From the NCBI GenBank assembly GCA_027483895.1, contig JAIXTP010000033.1, forward strand, positions 1-64,000: a stretch of 64,000 nt of DNA, written 5' to 3'. This document shows positions 20,188-27,587 of the stretch, piece by piece. How positions within the stretch are numbered: position 1 is the stretch's first letter; the number at the start of each line of letters is the position of its first letter. The stretch is from Hyphomicrobiales bacterium (GTDB lineage: Bacteria; Pseudomonadota; Alphaproteobacteria; Rhizobiales; Beijerinckiaceae). The notes below the pieces were generated by a model, which made no database searches, was not told the origin of the DNA, and was given only the letters and a program-made list of their open reading frames with translations. A program made the position numbers and the translations under genes.

Positions 20188-21254
20188 GCGCGTTTCCCCC
20201 GAAAGGCCGTCGCAAGCGCGGCGGCACCAAGCGCATCAACCTCGCGCTTCAGGGCGGCGGCGCGCACGGCGCCGTGACCTGGGGCGTGCTCGACGCCTTT
20301 CTCGAAGACGAACGGCTGGAGATCGGCGCGATCAGCGGCACGAGCGCGGGCGCCGTGAATGCGGCGATCCTCGCCTCCGGCCTTTGCGCCGGCGGGCCGG
20401 AAGGCGCGCGCGCCGCGCTGCGGGCGTTCTGGCGGGATCTGGCGGTCGACGGGCATGTTCCGGAAAGCGCGCGCGGCGTCGTCGAACTGATGCTGACGCC
20501 GTGGAAGCTCGGCGCCGCGGCGGGCCAGAACCTGATGGAGGCGACGCGCAACGTGCTGTCGCCCTACAGCGTCAATCCGCTCGACATCAATCCTCTGCGG
20601 GCGGTGGTGGAACGCCATATCGACTTCGAGGCGATCCGCTCGCAGGACGGGCCGAAGCTGCATATCGCGGCGACCAACGTGAAGACCGGCCGCATCCGGA
20701 TCTTCGGCCGAAAGGACCTCCGGCCGGACGTGGTCATGGCCTCGGCCGCCCTGCCCTATCTGTTCCGGGCGGTGGAGATCGACGGCGAGCCCTATTGGGA
20801 CGGCGGCTTTCTAGGAAATCCCGCGCTGTTCCCGTTCTTCGACGAGAAGACGATCGACGACATCGTGCTCGTGCAGATCAACCCCATAGTCCGCGAGCGG
20901 GTACCGGAGACGGCAGCCGACATCCTCGAACGCGCCAACGAGATCGCCTTCAATGCTTCCTTGCTGCACGAATTCCGGGCCATCGCATTCGTCTCGAGGC
21001 TGATCGCCACGGGCGCGCTCAAGGATCCGCATTACCGCTCGGTGCGCATGCACCGCGTCGAGGCGCATGAGGGAATCGAAGATCTCGACGTCGCGAGCCG
21101 ACTTCAGGCGAACTGGGCCTTTTTCGGCCGCCTCTTCGAAGCCGGCCGTGCCGCAGGCGAGCGCTTTCTCGCCGAACATTTCGACGCCGTCGGCGAGCGG
21201 AGCACCTTCGATCTCGAAGCCGCTTTCGAAACGGGCCCGGTCAGATCCGCCTGA
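20184..21254 (+). CDS. Patatin-like phospholipase coupled to bdhA
   Basis: The GTG at 20184 overlaps the bdhA stop codon and gives 356 residues. The patatin domain (about 17-230) has the oxyanion loop LQGGGAHGAV (22-31), the nucleophile motif GTSAG with Ser54, and the catalytic Asp in WDGGFLGNP. The C-terminal third continues into the longer bacterial patatin form. Patatins hydrolyse acyl esters of lipids. The tight link to bdhA suggests a role in mobilising polyhydroxybutyrate or its granule lipids, which is inference from context. Its last 14 bases overlap the convergent methyltransferase gene. Confidence 0.88.
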   Translation: MSAFPPKGRRKRGGTKRINLALQGGGAHGAVTWGVLDAFLEDERLEIGAISGTSAGAVNAAILASGLCAGGPEGARAALRAFWRDLAVDGHVPESARGVVELMLTPWKLGAAAGQNLMEATRNVLSPYSVNPLDINPLRAVVERHIDFEAIRSQDGPKLHIAATNVKTGRIRIFGRKDLRPDVVMASAALPYLFRAVEIDGEPYWDGGFLGNPALFPFFDEKTIDDIVLVQINPIVRERVPETAADILERANEIAFNASLLHEFRAIAFVSRLIATGALKDPHYRSVRMHRVEAHEGIEDLDVASRLQANWAFFGRLFEAGRAAGERFLAEHFDAVGERSTFDLEAAFETGPVRSA

Positions 21255-21885
21255 AACGCCAGACCTGCGTCTTCTTGATCTCGGAATCCTCCAGCTCCCG
21301 CGTGGTGGGCACGCGATATTCCGCCACCGCTTCGAGCCGGTCCTTGGGCAGATAGCTGCGCCCGGGGTCGCCGATGAGGACCGTCGCGCCACGGTCCGCG
21401 AGCGCGGAGAGCCAATCCATCACGCGTGCGGCCATGTCGCGCTCGTAACAGACGTCGCCGGCGAGAACGACGTCCCATCCCTCGTCGCGGCCGATCACGT
21501 CGTCGGCCCGCGGCGCGACGCGGATCCCGTTGGCTTCCGCGTTCAGAAGAATGGCTTCGGCGGCGAAGACGTCGATGTCGGCGCCCGTGACCTCGGCCGC
21601 ACCCGCCATGGCCGCTGCGACGGCGACGAGACCGGAGCCGGAGGCGAAATCGAGCACCGTTCGCCCGCGCACGGTTTCGGGATGGTCGAGAATGTAGCGC
21701 GCGAGCGCCTGCCCGCCTGCCCATGCGAAGGCCCAGAAGGGCGGCGGCAGCCCCTCTTCCTGCAGCTCCTCTTCCGTCTTCTTCCAGAGCGGCACGGATT
21801 CGTCGGCCAGATGGAGCCGGATTTCCGGGGCATGCGGCACGGGAAGGAGCCGGGTATTGGCCCGGATGAAGGCGGAACGCGTCAT
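21241..21885 (-). CDS. Protein-lysine methyltransferase, ETFB-KMT/METTL20-like
   Basis: The 214-residue protein is a seven-beta-strand methyltransferase. PLWKKTEEELQEEGLPPPFW, WAGGQALARYILDHPE and the SAM motif VLDFASGSGLVAVAAAMAGA resemble the bacterial relatives of human ETFB lysine methyltransferase, which modify the electron transfer flavoprotein beta subunit. The DVCYERDMA stretch corresponds to the D-x-x-Y motif of the lysine methylase branch. No etf genes are in the window. The gene lies 17 bases downstream of the photolyase-like gene on the same strand. Confidence 0.78.
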   Translation of the reverse strand: MTRSAFIRANTRLLPVPHAPEIRLHLADESVPLWKKTEEELQEEGLPPPFWAFAWAGGQALARYILDHPETVRGRTVLDFASGSGLVAVAAAMAGAAEVTGADIDVFAAEAILLNAEANGIRVAPRADDVIGRDEGWDVVLAGDVCYERDMAARVMDWLSALADRGATVLIGDPGRSYLPKDRLEAVAEYRVPTTRELEDSEIKKTQVWRFRRI

Positions 21886-21902: not shown

Positions 21903-23141
21903 TCACGCGATCGCGCGACACAGCGCGGGCAGATGCTCCTTGAACGCGAAAAAGCCGCGGCGCGCATGGGGCCACGCCCGCGCGTCCCACGGACGAAGCG
22001 CTTGCGCGAAGGGAATGCCGCGGGCGGCAAGCGCCCTCCGGACCGGCACCAAGGCGTCCGCCGTCCAGCCGACGGGGATGAAGCCCGTAACGACCTGTTC
22101 CGCTCCGCCCAGCGCCGCTTCGAGCGCCGCCGCGTCGCCGGGTTCGATCCATGCGAGCGGAAGCCCGCGGGCCTCAGCGAGCCTTTCGGCCGCGATCCGG
22201 ACGGCTTGCGTCGTGAAGAGGCGCGCAGCCTCGGAGACGGGCGCGGAGGAACGCGCATCCGGCGCGCAGAAGGCCGCGATGCCGCGGATGCTCGGCCAAG
22301 GAAGATCGAGATCCTCCGGCCGCAGATCCTCTTCCGTGACGAGGAGGATCGAGGACAGGTCCGCGCGCGGAGGGACGGGCGCACGGATCGGCCCCGGCTG
22401 CACCGCATCCGCTTCGACCAGCGGCTCGGGAGAAGCGGCGAGACCGCGCGGGGAGAACCGTCCGCCCGTATGTTTCTCGATATTGTCGGCGCGGGCGACG
22501 TAATGCTTGCCCTTGGTATGGAGCCCCGCGACCCAGCGCCACGACAGGGTGTTGGACGCCGCGTCCGCATCGGCGAGCCGGCGCAGGAAGAGGTCGGCCC
22601 CTAGCTCCCACGGCAGGCGCAGGGTGAAGATCCAGATCGAGGCGAACCACATACGGGTGTGGTTGTGGAGAAAGCCGGTCTCGGCGAGTTCGCGGGCCCA
22701 TGCATCGAAGCAGTCGATCCCGGTCCGGCCTTCTTCGGCGTCCGCAAGTCGGGCGAGGAACGCCGGGGAGGCGGCTTCGCGGAGCGCGACGGCCCCGTCG
22801 CGCGCGCCGGACCAGAGCGCCGGACGCATTTCGAGATGGCCCTTCCAATAGGTGCGCCAGAAGACTTCCTGCACGAATTTCTCGGCCGCGTCGTAGGAAT
22901 GGCGTGCGAGGACGGCGGCGACGGTCTCCTCCTCGGTGATCAGCCGATGCCGGATCCAGGGCGAGAGGCGCGAGACGTTGCGGCGGCCCGGTCCCTCGTC
23001 GTGGTTGCGCCGCGCCGCATAGGCCGCGCCGGCCCGCGGCAGGAAATCACGCAGGCGCCGGAGCCCCTCTTCCCGAGTGGGAACGAGAGGCTCGGCCGGC
23101 CGGTCGGAGGGCGCGTCGGAGAAGAGGTCGAGGGCGGTCAT
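21903..23141 (-). CDS. Photolyase/cryptochrome-like FAD protein with reversed domain order
   Basis: The 412-residue protein begins directly with the photolyase FAD-binding domain instead of the usual antenna domain. Visible motifs are GRRNVSRLSPWIRHRLI (about 52-68), KFVQEVFWRTYWKG, TGFLHNHTRMWFASIWIF and NTLSWRWVAGLHTKGKHY, all in the order of the class I photolyase FAD domain. After a proline-rich linker at about 240-260, the C-terminal 150 residues look like an alpha/beta domain ending in ALRPWDARAWPHARRGFF, resembling the last part of a photolyase antenna domain. Light-driven DNA repair or a blue-light receptor role is plausible; neither is shown. It is coupled to the downstream methyltransferase gene. 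Confidence 0.78.
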   Translation of the reverse strand: MTALDLFSDAPSDRPAEPLVPTREEGLRRLRDFLPRAGAAYAARRNHDEGPGRRNVSRLSPWIRHRLITEEETVAAVLARHSYDAAEKFVQEVFWRTYWKGHLEMRPALWSGARDGAVALREAASPAFLARLADAEEGRTGIDCFDAWARELAETGFLHNHTRMWFASIWIFTLRLPWELGADLFLRRLADADAASNTLSWRWVAGLHTKGKHYVARADNIEKHTGGRFSPRGLAASPEPLVEADAVQPGPIRAPVPPRADLSSILLVTEEDLRPEDLDLPWPSIRGIAAFCAPDARSSAPVSEAARLFTTQAVRIAAERLAEARGLPLAWIEPGDAAALEAALGGAEQVVTGFIPVGWTADALVPVRRALAARGIPFAQALRPWDARAWPHARRGFFAFKEHLPALCRAIA

Positions 23142-23172: not shown

Positions 23173-25917
23173 TCAGGCGCGCTCGACCCTCACTGCGGAA
23201 TATTTGAATTCGGGGATCTTCCCGAAGGGATCGAGCTTCGGATTGGTGAGGATGTTCGCCGCCGCTTCCACATAGGCGAAGGGCACGAAGACCATGTCGG
23301 GCTGCATAGCCTCGTCCGCTCTCGCGGTCAGGGTGATCGTGCCGCGCCGGGTGGACAGGCGCACCGCCTCGCCGGCCGCGACGCCGAGGCGCCGCAGGGT
23401 CTGCGGATGCAGGCTCGCGGTCGGCCCGGGTTCGAGCCGGTCGAGGGTCGCGGAACGCCTCGTCATCGACCCCGTATGCCAATGTTCGAGCTGCCGGCCC
23501 GTCGTCAGCACCATCGGGTAATCCGGGTCGGGCGTCTCGGCGGGCGAGGTGACGGCGGCGGGGACGAAACGCGCCCGGCCGGTCTCGGTCGGGAAGCGGT
23601 CGCCGAAGACGACCGCATGTCCCGGAACGTCGGGCCCGTCCACCGGATAGGTCACCGCGCCCTCGCGCTCCAGCCTCTCCCACGAGATGTTGTCGAGCGA
23701 CGGCATGATGCGCTTCATCTCGGCGAAGACCTCGCGCGGATGCGCGTAGCGCCAATCGAGACCGAGCCTCCGGCCCATCTCGACGAGGATCGCGAAATCC
23801 TCGCGCGCTTCGCCCGGCGGCTTCAGCGCCGGGCGCCCGAGCTGGACCTGCCGGTTGGTGTTGGTCACCGTGCCGGTCTTTTCCGGCCATGCCGAGGCGG
23901 GCAGCACGACGTCGGCGAACATCGCCGTCTCGGTGAGGAAGATGTCCTGCACGACGAGATGGTCGAGCTTGGCCAACGCCTCACGGGCATGGGCGGCGTC
24001 GGGGTCCGACATCGCCGGGTTCTCGCCCATCACGTAGAGGCCCTTGATCTCGCCCCGTCCGATCGCGTCGACGATCTCGACCACGGTCAGGCCGGGGGCC
24101 GGATCCAGCGCCGCACCCCAGAGCGCTTCCACAGCACCGCGCCGGACGTCGTTTCCGACGCGCGCGTAATCGGGGAGCATCATGGGGATGAGCCCCGCAT
24201 CGGACGCACCCTGCACGTTGTTCTGGCCCCGCAGCGGATGCAGGCCCGTACCCTCGCGGCCCACCTGCCCGCACATCAGCGCGAGCGAGATCAGGCAGCG
24301 CGCATTGTCCGTGCCGTGGACGTGCTGCGACACGCCCATGCCCCAGAAGATGATGGCCCGCTCGGCCGTCGCATACAGTCGCGCCACGGTCCGGATCGTC
24401 TCGGGATCGATGCCGCAGATCGGACTCATCGCCTCGGGCGTGTAGGGCGCGAGATGCGCGACGAGACGCTCGAAATTTTCGGTGTGCTCGGCGACATAGG
24501 CCGGATCGTGGAGCCCCTCCGACACGATGACGTTCATCATCGCGTCGAGCAGCGCCACGTCGGAGCCCGGGCGGAAGCGCAGCATGTGCGCCGCGTGGTG
24601 CCTCAAGGCCTGCCCGCGCGGATCCATCACGACGAGCTTGGCGCCGCGCTTGACCGCCTGCTTGAAATAGGTGGCCGCGACGGGATGGTTCTCGACCGGA
24701 TTGGCACCGATCACGACGATCACGTCGGCCTTCAGCGCCTCGTCGAAGGTCGCCGTGACCGCCGCCGAGCCGATGCCTTCGAGCAGTGCCGCGACCGAGG
24801 AGGCGTGGCAGAGCCGGGTGCAGTGATCGACATTGTTGTGCCCGAAGCCCGTGCGGATGAGCTTCTGGAAGAGATAGGCCTCCTCGTTCGAGCCCTTGGC
24901 GGAGCCGAAGCCCGCCACGGCCCGCCCGCCGATACGATCGCGCAGGGCGGCGAGCCCGCCCGCCGCGCGCTCCATCGCCTCCTCCCACGTCGCTTCGCGG
25001 AAATGGGTGAAGGGGTCAGCGGGATCGACGTTCAGGCCTTTCAGCGCACCCTCCCGGCGGATGAGCGGCACCGTCAGGCGTTGCGGGCTCGCGACATAGT
25101 CGAAGCCGAAGCGGCCCTTCACGCAAAGCCGGTTCTCGTTGGCCGGGCCATCGGCGCCGTCGACCCATGCGATGCGGCCGTCGCGGATGTTGAAGGTGAC
25201 GCGGCAGCCGACGCCGCAGAACGGGCAGACGCTCTCCACCTTGTCTTCGGCCGAGCGGGCGCCCGCACCGGTCGCGACGTCGACGACGGATGCGGGCATC
25301 AAGGCGCCCGTCGGGCAGGCCTGCACGCATTCGCCGCAGGCGACGCAGGTCGATTCCCCCATCGGGTCGGCGAGGTCGAAGACGGGGCGCATGGCATGGC
25401 CGCGGCCCGCCATGCCGATCACGTCGTTCACCTGCACTTCGCGGCAGGCCCGGACGCAGAGACCGCAGGCGATGCAGGCATCCATCGCGACCTGCATGGC
25501 CGGATGGGAAAGATCGCGCTCGGGTGCATGGTCGAAGGCCGCGAAACGCGAGCCCTCGAGCCCTTCGCGGTCGAGTTCGGCGAGGAAATGCGAGGCGCCG
25601 TCGCGGGCCTCGGCACGCGGCGGCTGATCGGCCGCGAGCATTTCGAGAACCATCCGGCGGGCGGTCTTGGCACGTTCGCTTTCGGTCGAAACCGTCATGC
25701 CCTCGGCGGGGGCGCGGCAGCAGGACGGGGCGAGAACGCGCTCGCCCGCGATCTCGACCATGCAGGCGCGGCAATTGCCGTCGGGGCGGTAGCCGGGTTC
25801 GGGCCGGTGGCAGAGATGCGGGATCTCGGTGCCCTCGCGCCTCGCGACCTCCCAGATCGTCTCGCCCGGTCGGGCCTCGACGGGCCGGCCGTCGAGCGTG
25901 AAGCGGATCGCGGTCAT
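23173..25917 (-). CDS. fdsA: NAD-dependent formate dehydrogenase, molybdenum/tungsten catalytic subunit alpha
   Basis: This 914-residue subunit oxidises formate to CO2 at a bis-pterin Mo or W centre. Its order of domains is NuoG-like: a [2Fe-2S] N-terminus (HLCHRPEPGY, CRACMVEIAG), two [4Fe-4S] ferredoxin motifs (CIACGLCVRAC, CVACGECVQACPTG), the molybdopterin [4Fe-4S] motif CPFCGVGC, then the catalytic domain with DHCTRLCHASS, where Cys takes the place of selenocysteine, and a C-terminal dinucleotide domain with TTGRQLEHWHTGSMTRR. The start overlaps the stop of the fused beta subunit by four bases (ATGA). The fused partner makes it closest in layout to Methylobacterium FDH1. No fdhD/fdsC or fdsD gene is next to it. 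Confidence 0.94.
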   Translation of the reverse strand: MTAIRFTLDGRPVEARPGETIWEVARREGTEIPHLCHRPEPGYRPDGNCRACMVEIAGERVLAPSCCRAPAEGMTVSTESERAKTARRMVLEMLAADQPPRAEARDGASHFLAELDREGLEGSRFAAFDHAPERDLSHPAMQVAMDACIACGLCVRACREVQVNDVIGMAGRGHAMRPVFDLADPMGESTCVACGECVQACPTGALMPASVVDVATGAGARSAEDKVESVCPFCGVGCRVTFNIRDGRIAWVDGADGPANENRLCVKGRFGFDYVASPQRLTVPLIRREGALKGLNVDPADPFTHFREATWEEAMERAAGGLAALRDRIGGRAVAGFGSAKGSNEEAYLFQKLIRTGFGHNNVDHCTRLCHASSVAALLEGIGSAAVTATFDEALKADVIVVIGANPVENHPVAATYFKQAVKRGAKLVVMDPRGQALRHHAAHMLRFRPGSDVALLDAMMNVIVSEGLHDPAYVAEHTENFERLVAHLAPYTPEAMSPICGIDPETIRTVARLYATAERAIIFWGMGVSQHVHGTDNARCLISLALMCGQVGREGTGLHPLRGQNNVQGASDAGLIPMMLPDYARVGNDVRRGAVEALWGAALDPAPGLTVVEIVDAIGRGEIKGLYVMGENPAMSDPDAAHAREALAKLDHLVVQDIFLTETAMFADVVLPASAWPEKTGTVTNTNRQVQLGRPALKPPGEAREDFAILVEMGRRLGLDWRYAHPREVFAEMKRIMPSLDNISWERLEREGAVTYPVDGPDVPGHAVVFGDRFPTETGRARFVPAAVTSPAETPDPDYPMVLTTGRQLEHWHTGSMTRRSATLDRLEPGPTASLHPQTLRRLGVAAGEAVRLSTRRGTITLTARADEAMQPDMVFVPFAYVEAAANILTNPKLDPFGKIPEFKYSAVRVERA

Positions 25918-27587
25918 CGCGCGGCCTCCTCGGGGAAGAAGCGCAGCAGGGAGCGGATGGGATTGGCCGCGGCCTGCCCGAGTCCGCAGATCGAGGCGTC
26001 CGCCATGACCTGCGCGAGATCGGCCAGCAGAACCTGATCGCGACCCCCTTCGAGGAGACCCGCCGCCTTGCCCGTGCCGACGCGGCAGGGCGTGCACTGG
26101 CCGCAGCTCTCATGCTCGAAGAACCGCATGAGATTGGTCGCCACCGCCGCGAGATCGTCGTCCTCGGCGAGGAAGACGACCGCATGGCTGCCCACGAAGC
26201 AGCCGAGATCGTCGAGCGTGCCGAAATCGAGCGGGCGATCCATGAAGGTCGCGGGCAGGATGCCGCCCGAAGCGCCGCCGGGGAGGAAGGCCTTGATGCG
26301 CCGCCCCTCGCCCGGGCCGCCCGCCAGCTCCAGAAGCTCCGCCGCCGTCGAACCCGCCGGAGCCACGTAGAGCCCGGGCCGGCTGACGCGGCCGGACACC
26401 GACCAGGAGCGCAACCCCTTCGCGCCGTTGCGGCCCGCGGCGGCGAATGCGGCGGGCCCCTCCTCGACGATGCGTCGGATCCAGACCAGCGTCTCGACAT
26501 TGTGGTTGAGCGTCGGCCGGCCGAAGAGCCCGCGCTCGGCGATGAAGGGCGGGCGCTTGCGCGGGAAGCCGCGCTTGCCCTCGATGCTTTCCAGCATCGC
26601 GCTCTCCTCGCCGCAGACATAGGCCCCGGCACCACGGCGCAGTTCGACGAAGCCGGGCGCGACGAGACCCGCGGCCTCGATCTCCTCGATCGACCGCGTG
26701 AGGATTTCGCGGACGGCCGGATATTCGTCGCGCAGATAGACGTAGATCCGCTCCACCTCGACCGCGGCGGCCGCGACCAGCATGCCTTCGAGGAAGCGAT
26801 GAGGTTCGGTTTCGAGCCAATGGCGGTCCTTGAACGTGCCGGGCTCGCCCTCGTCGGCATTCACGGTCATCAGGCGCGGCGCGGGCTGCGCACGCACGAC
26901 GGACCATTTGCGGCCGGCCGGGAACCCCGCACCGCCGAGACCGCGCAGACCTGAGTCGGACAGAAGGCCGATCAGCGTGTCGACCGGCAGCGCGCCGGAT
27001 CGGACGCGGTCGAGCAAGGCGTATCCGCCCCCGGCTCTATAGTCCTCGAAATCCGCATGGGCGGGCAGTTCGGGCCGGAGATCGCCCTCGATCGCGGCAC
27101 GCAGCGTTTCGACGGTGGCGTGCCCCGCCGCGCGGTCCCCGACCAGAGCCGCGGGCGCCTCGGCGCAACGGCCGATGCAGGGCGCCTTCACGACGCGGAT
27201 GCGGGACGGATCGACGCCCGCGGCGAGCGCTTCGGCGAGCCTCTCGCCGCCCGCGAGCATGCAGGACACCGACGTACAGACCCGCACCGTCAGCCCGGGC
27301 GGCGGGGTCTCGCCCTCCTTCACGATGTCGAAATGCGCGTAGAAGCTCGCCGTCTCCATGACCTCGGCCATGGACAACCGCATCTCCTCGGCCAGCGCAC
27401 GCAGATGGCGGGCGGAAAGATGGCCGAACAGATCCTGCAGGACGTGCAGATGCTCGATCAGGTGATCGCGCGCCCGGGGCGCGTTGCCGAGCACGGCGCG
27501 CACCTCGTCCAGCGCCGCGGGATCGAGCGGGCGGCCCTTCGGCAGGGGCCGCGGGCGACGGCCCTCGCGGGTCGGCGCGACGGTCAT
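25914..27587 (-). CDS. fdsB: NAD-dependent formate dehydrogenase, fused gamma-beta (NuoE-NuoF-like) subunit
   Basis: The 557-residue protein joins two subunits that are separate in most formate dehydrogenases. Residues 1-160 are NuoE/FdsG-like with the [2Fe-2S] cysteines in CTSVSCMLAGGE and CIGRCAEAP. Residues 185-557 are NuoF/FdsB-like with the FMN loop GLRGLGGAGFPAGRKW, NADEGEPGTFKDR, GAGAYVCGEESAM, and the [4Fe-4S] site ESCGQCTPCRVGTG plus a later Cys in ASICGLGQ. It passes electrons from the alpha subunit to NAD+. Two ATGs lie close together; the one at 27587 has AGAGGA at better spacing than 27593. It starts 46 bases after xerC on the same strand. Confidence 0.93.
   Translation of the reverse strand: MTVAPTREGRRPRPLPKGRPLDPAALDEVRAVLGNAPRARDHLIEHLHVLQDLFGHLSARHLRALAEEMRLSMAEVMETASFYAHFDIVKEGETPPPGLTVRVCTSVSCMLAGGERLAEALAAGVDPSRIRVVKAPCIGRCAEAPAALVGDRAAGHATVETLRAAIEGDLRPELPAHADFEDYRAGGGYALLDRVRSGALPVDTLIGLLSDSGLRGLGGAGFPAGRKWSVVRAQPAPRLMTVNADEGEPGTFKDRHWLETEPHRFLEGMLVAAAAVEVERIYVYLRDEYPAVREILTRSIEEIEAAGLVAPGFVELRRGAGAYVCGEESAMLESIEGKRGFPRKRPPFIAERGLFGRPTLNHNVETLVWIRRIVEEGPAAFAAAGRNGAKGLRSWSVSGRVSRPGLYVAPAGSTAAELLELAGGPGEGRRIKAFLPGGASGGILPATFMDRPLDFGTLDDLGCFVGSHAVVFLAEDDDLAAVATNLMRFFEHESCGQCTPCRVGTGKAAGLLEGGRDQVLLADLAQVMADASICGLGQAAANPIRSLLRFFPEEAAR

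Follow-up and report, generated by a model that had tools for sequence, protein, structure and literature searches.

The NewPHL class of photolyases is said to go back to work by Emmerich et al. in 2020 and reportedly repairs cyclobutane pyrimidine dimers (CPDs) in single-stranded DNA. Passages in two later papers cite Emmerich et al. 2020 (doi 10.1093/nar/gkaa1147) for NewPHL photolyases (PMC13274461; PMC11228841). The first of these treats "NewPHLs or SPLs" as a single class of "inverted domain topology" and gives the accessions A8LJA9 for the D. shibae and M7YZC8 for the M. mesophilicum protein. In the part of PMC9426592 on picocyanobacteria, Phr7 of Prochlorococcus is described as an N-terminal FAD domain followed by a C-terminal Z-domain, without Fe-S cysteines; for D. 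shibae and M. mesophilicum, this type is given as shown to be a CPD photolyase that acts on single-stranded DNA. According to a passage in PMC8948257, the NewPHL of D. shibae has "a mere Trp dyad", and an excerpt of PMC12083526 lists NewPHL among the classes with a conserved flavin asparagine. The SPL class is defined in a passage of PMC9649867 by the missing N-terminal alpha/beta domain, and the legend of Figure 3 of that paper gives it an Fe-S cluster.

Here, we analyzed a window, i.e., a whole stretch of DNA of 64,000 nucleotides, containing a gene for a photolyase-like protein with its domains in this inverted order. The protein is very probably a NewPHL-type photolyase, with the antenna domain behind the FAD domain, which would repair CPDs by electron transfer from FAD and would prefer single strands. 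This assignment rests on the architecture, on residues and on a relative from the same genus (Methylobacterium) as a characterized member, the characterized proteins being compared by description. The original prediction, made from the sequence, had proposed a distinct repair enzyme. The proposal fits the published NewPHL class, but the novelty it implied does not hold: the class is in print (passages of PMC13274461, PMC9426592 and PMC8948257) and the gene is widespread. Inverted-order photolyases are already known, so the window gene is not a new kind.

The gene and its domain layout

The reading frame was found where predicted, on the minus strand, and encodes 412 amino acids. All motifs quoted from it are present, namely NVSRLSPWIRHRLI (residues 55-68), FLHNHTRMWFAS, WRWVAG (residues 201-206) and, near the end, RPWDARAWPHARRGFF. 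Its features are as follows.

21903..23141, minus strand: putative NewPHL-type photolyase gene, 412 aa, ATG start, FAD domain first, antenna-like domain last
22422..23105, minus strand: FAD-binding (catalytic) domain, residues 13-240 (VIA-align to 1iqr; Pfam FAD_binding_7)
22854..22868, minus strand: E92..W95-R96, aligned with E. coli E274, W277 and R278 (alignments; conserved in 76 of 76 sequences)
22638..22673, minus strand: FLHNHTRMWFAS motif, residues 157-168, with N160 (EcN341), R163 (EcR344) and M164 (EcM345) (alignments; conserved in 76 of 76)
22533..22571, minus strand: D191, D193 and N197 (EcD372, D374, N378), W201 (EcW382) and W203 (EcW384) (alignments)
22359..22421, minus strand: interdomain linker, residues 241-261 (secondary structure and domain limits)
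21906..22358, minus strand: C-terminal antenna-like Rossmann domain, the "Z-domain" of the literature, residues 262-412 (model of the domain alone; Foldseek, VIA-align)
21948..21995, minus strand: RPWDARAWPHARRGFF motif, residues 383-398 (D386, G396 and F398 invariant in 76 sequences)

A contig scan returned at least 592 confirmed loci. The 80 loci kept from these belong mostly to Alphaproteobacteria, besides ten Microbacteriaceae and single MAGs labeled as other groups. An intact, unambiguous reading frame is present in 75 of the 80; L068, L098, L107, L110 and L111 were left out due to interrupted frames or an ambiguous residue. The window protein together with these 75 relatives forms the set of 76 sequences referred to throughout and was the input for AlphaFold2. 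The resulting model of the whole protein has a mean pLDDT of 95.1 and a pTM of 0.92, and its C-terminal part is alpha/beta. Thus, a confident model now exists for the NewPHL class, which is without a close relative among solved sequences; the best PDB sequence match of the 412-aa protein is Thermus photolyase with an E-value of 1.3e-14. The order proposed originally, FAD domain first and antenna-like domain last, is borne out by the AlphaFold2 models, Foldseek and VIA-align.

The C-terminal domain

Because VIA-align of the whole model mostly tested residues 12-240, the C-terminal domain was modeled (AlphaFold2, pLDDT 93.8) and searched alone. In Foldseek, only three matches were obtained at E <= 1e-3, of which two are entries for Arabidopsis CRY2 and the third is a class II photolyase, with TM by query of 0.49-0.53. 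VIA-align ranks residues 2-147 of 1iqr first (Z 8.9, rmsd 3.9, 140 aligned); they pair with model residues 19-169, corresponding to protein residues 262-412. Ranks 1-18 are all photolyases or cryptochromes, aligned to their N-terminal domains, and most of these rows span the whole domain including the C-terminal helices. The best matches among solved structures are N-terminal antenna domains of photolyases and cryptochromes. The Z-scores of photolyases range from 7.0 to 8.9, however, and the highest-ranking universal stress protein reaches Z 7.7; only 1iqr exceeds it by over one unit, and by the tool's own criterion the other photolyase rows count as tied with it.

Universal stress proteins and the antenna domain have a common fold. 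The C-terminal part might accordingly be a generic HUP or universal-stress-protein-like domain that was fused to the FAD domain, and not a relocated antenna, and the similar Z-scores of the two groups as well as the sequence searches agree with this. Neither the Pfam antenna model (PF00875) nor PF04244 (DPRP) matches any of the 76 sequences, and a profile of the C-terminal domain, compared with PDB sequences, gave 13 matches up to E 10, no photolyase among them. Using hhalign, the direct link of this profile to antenna profiles is weak, with probabilities of 14.1% for class I (5% in the other direction), 13.6% for the normal-order photolyases found as neighbors of relatives and 0.8% for DPRP, all E-values being those of single comparisons. 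Yet the universal stress proteins cover model residues 16-142 only, in contrast to the mostly whole-domain matches at ranks 1-18. Further, small stand-alone antenna-like proteins, described below, bridge the gap in sequence: their profile matches the class I antenna with 95.8% (136 columns) and the C-terminal domain of NewPHL with 76.4% (134 columns; 57.8% with the first eight sequences), while the controls reached 0.1% against the FAD domain and 0.3% against the reversed C-terminal domain. A generic HUP domain is improbable in our view.

We read the C-terminal domain as a photolyase antenna domain, collinear with its counterparts and placed behind the FAD domain, on the basis of the predicted structure; sequence profiles by themselves would not reveal it. 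With the antenna domain in this position, the protein would in effect be a circular permutation at the domain boundary. A second chromophore may be bound, and its placement may differ from the usual one, as the original prediction proposed. The FO synthase CofH was not found in a search of the organism's own genome, rated 93% complete, and this speaks against 8-HDF as the antenna.

The FAD domain and its active site

Pfam recognizes FAD_binding_7 at residues 89-218 (E 7.5e-22), covering profile positions 1-129 of 203 only, and the NCBIfam photolyase models match by the FAD part alone, far under their cut-offs (NF007955: 65 bits, cut-off 506). The best solved relatives in the PDB sequence search are photolyases; query residues 9-216 match residues 164-366 of 1iqr, which belong to its FAD part. 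On the level of structure, VIA-align of the whole model places residues 13-240 on residues 169-411 of 1iqr (Z 16.2, rmsd 3.4, 212 aligned).

Residue numbers of E. coli photolyase were counted from a sequence alignment of the window protein with a solved photolyase. E. coli E274, W277, R278, N341, R344 and M345 correspond to E92, W95, R96, N160, R163 and M164, and W359, D372, D374, N378, W382 and W384 correspond to W178, D191, D193, N197, W201 and W203; every one of these positions is identical in 76 of 76 sequences, including the flavin-facing asparagine N197. We assume that they have the roles of their E. coli equivalents, with E92, W95 and R96 presumably part of the lesion pocket. The column of E. 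coli W306 contains a tryptophan in none of the 76 sequences and a gap in 29. Any tryptophan in columns 111-142 is found in 17 of the 76, and the window protein is not one of them. Judged from the alignment, W201 and W178 (EcW359) form a tryptophan dyad, not a triad, but another tryptophan could stand in. The protein has only three cysteines (144, 292 and 408) and no Fe-S cluster motif.

Repair activity and the steps of electron transfer are established for photolyases in general, and by analogy the following course may be proposed. FAD would be bound by the N-terminal domain, and blue or near-UV light would excite the reduced cofactor. Excited FAD would then pass an electron to a CPD flipped into a pocket that is probably lined by E92, W95, N160, M164 and W203, and the dimer would split. 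A chain of two tryptophans, W201 and W178, could re-reduce oxidized FAD. As in characterized NewPHL members, the protein should act on single-stranded DNA.

Gene neighborhood and other photolyase genes

Two genes flank the photolyase gene.

23173..26097, minus strand: formate dehydrogenase subunit alpha gene, start codon uncertain (TIGR01591 over cut-off)
21241..21885, minus strand: methyltransferase gene (matches to PrmA / lysine methyltransferase models)

On the minus strand, the formate dehydrogenase alpha gene comes first, followed after 31 bases by the photolyase gene and after a further 17 bases by the methyltransferase gene. The two further genomes sampled from the genus both show the linkage to formate dehydrogenase, and one of them (L145) that to the methyltransferase. 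Among the fetched loci searched, formate dehydrogenase matches were detected only in L034, L144 and L145, of which L034 and L144 represent the same genome, and none of the remaining loci searched has the methyltransferase neighbor. The idea that proximity to formate dehydrogenase hints at the function was rejected, as this linkage was seen within the genus only.

Our searches of the organism's own genome detected three photolyase-family genes, namely the window gene, a class I enzyme (489 aa) and a gene of the DPRP type. A missing conventional photolyase, considered in the original prediction, is contradicted by this result, and the idea that the window gene stands in for one was discarded.

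The neighborhoods of 68 relatives were analyzed, since in seven of the 75 loci the gene was missed by the crude ORF caller. Another photolyase-family gene lies at most five genes away in 21 of the 68 (normal-order type in 18, DPRP type in 11, both in 8), directly adjacent in 20 of these 21 according to the same crude gene caller. Domains were scanned in a single representative per kind of neighbor. The normal-order representative carries PF00875 and PF03441, with all NCBIfam photolyase models under cut-off, and the second carries DPRP; "dash" in the tree described below is merely a working label for the normal-order type. In L048, L049, L054, L061, L089, L091, L103 and L112, a NewPHL, a normal-order and a DPRP-type gene stand few genes apart.

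A different kind of neighborhood exists in Ruegeria sp. TM1040, where a PAS-domain protein and a response regulator adjoin the NewPHL-type gene. Such neighbors would suit a cryptochrome-like blue-light receptor that uses the same fold for signaling instead of repair, and the tryptophan missing at the distal position could fit an altered photochemistry. However, all 76 sequences agree at the residues aligned with the E. coli lesion pocket, M164 (EcM345) among them, photolyase-family genes recur as neighbors in the 21 neighborhoods mentioned, and published NewPHL members repair CPDs according to the passage in PMC9426592. A receptor is therefore highly improbable, and we retain the NewPHL-type photolyase as our reading.

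Distribution and phylogeny

The gene is widespread and its architecture is conserved in relatives. In a sample of the class (289 genomes), a match at E <= 0.001 was obtained for 172 genomes, and for 21, including the own genome, one at E <= 1e-60. For all 20 other genomes with a match at E <= 1e-60, the alignment reaches query residue 396-412; the same domain order is present in each, and no split normal gene was seen. In a sample of the family (80 genomes), 16 have a match at E <= 1e-60, among them all three sampled genomes of the genus. A sequencing or assembly error that split or scrambled a normal photolyase gene is refuted by these 20 relatives, by the uninterrupted frames in 75 of 80 loci and by the normal class I gene elsewhere in the own genome, and its probability is negligible. 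Eight plasmid records match over at least 80% of the protein, and in six of them the match is annotated as "FAD-binding domain-containing protein"; three phage records have a match, and none of the three covers 80% of the protein.

A tree of the FAD domain was calculated from 54 rows chosen by hand. The bootstrap of this tree had not settled, and long branches and uneven composition were flagged. The 21 FAD-first proteins, among them the Methylobacterium relative (L069) and roseobacters, form a single clade in it (100/99), separate from all remaining rows (class I, DPRP, short and others). Class I does not form one group, and the 54 rows give no answer as to which of NewPHL, the short proteins and class I are nearest to each other.

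Short FAD-only genes with a separate antenna gene

The class search also returned eight short FAD-only relatives from Alphaproteobacteria (L025-L032). Each is accompanied by an ORF of 131-153 residues whose start lies between -8 and +14 bases relative to the stop codon's end; in L030, this refers to the start at -8 and not to the longest frame. Two more short genes, L168 and L174, are followed by ORFs of 143 and 131 residues that both start at -4; with these, ten short genes were found in 385 genomes. The ten loci are not independent, as L027, L028 and L174 belong to one genus and L031, L032 and L168 to one family. When 398 genomes from across the phylum were searched with a short protein, eight matches were obtained, only one of which was of the short type, and it was among those already collected.

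In Deinococcus sp. QL22 (L163:1390-2681), two annotated genes overlap by four bases, the second being called hypothetical. Taking QL22 and the ten Alphaproteobacteria together, an antenna-like gene of 131-173 residues is located directly downstream, and 10 of the 11 pairs overlap by 4-8 bases; the sole exception is L026, in which the antenna-like gene starts 14 bases on. A plasmid of D. psychrotolerans (L164:1345-2718) encodes a fused protein of 457 residues with the FAD part first and the antenna part last. Its C-terminal part matches the stand-alone antenna genes with an E-value of 4.8e-24, compared to 9e-5 for the C-terminal domain of NewPHL. For an antenna domain, Pfam gives support below its cut-off of 26.6 bits in QL22 (21.6 bits) and in the fusion protein of D. 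psychrotolerans (19.5 bits), whereas the small protein of L031 has no antenna match at all.

A phr4/phr5 gene pair and a fused phr6 are described for picocyanobacteria in the relevant part of PMC9426592, with the same gene set in Nostoc punctiforme. In the literature excerpts covered by our search, which lay outside the SPL paper of Xu et al. 2021, no report of a split FAD/antenna gene pair was found for Alphaproteobacteria or Deinococcus. The new loci extend the published cyanobacterial cases and suggest a two-gene stage behind the inverted order. Tentatively, we propose as possible rather than probable that the inverted order arose via this extant two-gene stage, that NewPHL and the D. psychrotolerans protein are separate fusions, and that short photolyases which seem to have no antenna work as two-subunit enzymes.

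Passages of PMC9649867 and PMC9498864 propose that the whole family descends from short photolyase-like proteins, one reason being that these are without the alpha/beta domain. If short proteins regularly have this domain encoded by an overlapping gene, the proposal should be reconsidered, although the short proteins collected here may differ from the published SPL set. The two-gene side result matters more than the window gene, which alone adds little, namely one more alphaproteobacterial genus with a NewPHL member.

Comparison with known photolyase classes

The traits of the FeS-BCP class (prokaryotic 6-4 photolyases) are absent from the window protein, which has no PF04244 match and three cysteines instead of four. 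Class I CPD photolyases (E. coli 1dnp, T. thermophilus 1iqr) have both domain folds and the active-site and flavin residues in common with it. They differ in their reverse domain order, with PF00875 N-terminal and a full FAD domain, whereas the FAD domain of the window protein aligns with no more than positions 1-129 of the 203-position Pfam profile and has no distal tryptophan at the EcW306 column.

The lack of an N-terminal alpha/beta domain is shared with SPL as well as with Phr4/Phr5 and Phr6 of Synechococcus and Cyanobium, as described in the part of PMC9426592 concerned. Since its FAD domain begins at residue 13, the window protein may be included in the published SPL class, as a passage in PMC13274461 assumes; the SPL described in the excerpt of PMC9649867, however, has an Fe-S cluster, in contrast to the three cysteines without cluster motif found here. 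As in the window protein, the FAD part of Phr4/5 and Phr6 precedes the antenna part, but Phr4 and Phr6 carry the Fe-S cysteines that it lacks (PMC9426592, same part). The short FAD-only proteins collected here differ in forming their own clade (90/93) and in having the antenna part usually in a separate gene.

The sequence traits of NewPHL that were compared are present: FAD domain first and a short, antenna-like Z-domain last, the putative tryptophan dyad, the flavin asparagine and the absence of Fe-S cysteines. In the features tested, the window protein does not differ from NewPHL and from Phr7 of Prochlorococcus, the characterized members being compared by their descriptions in the passages cited above.
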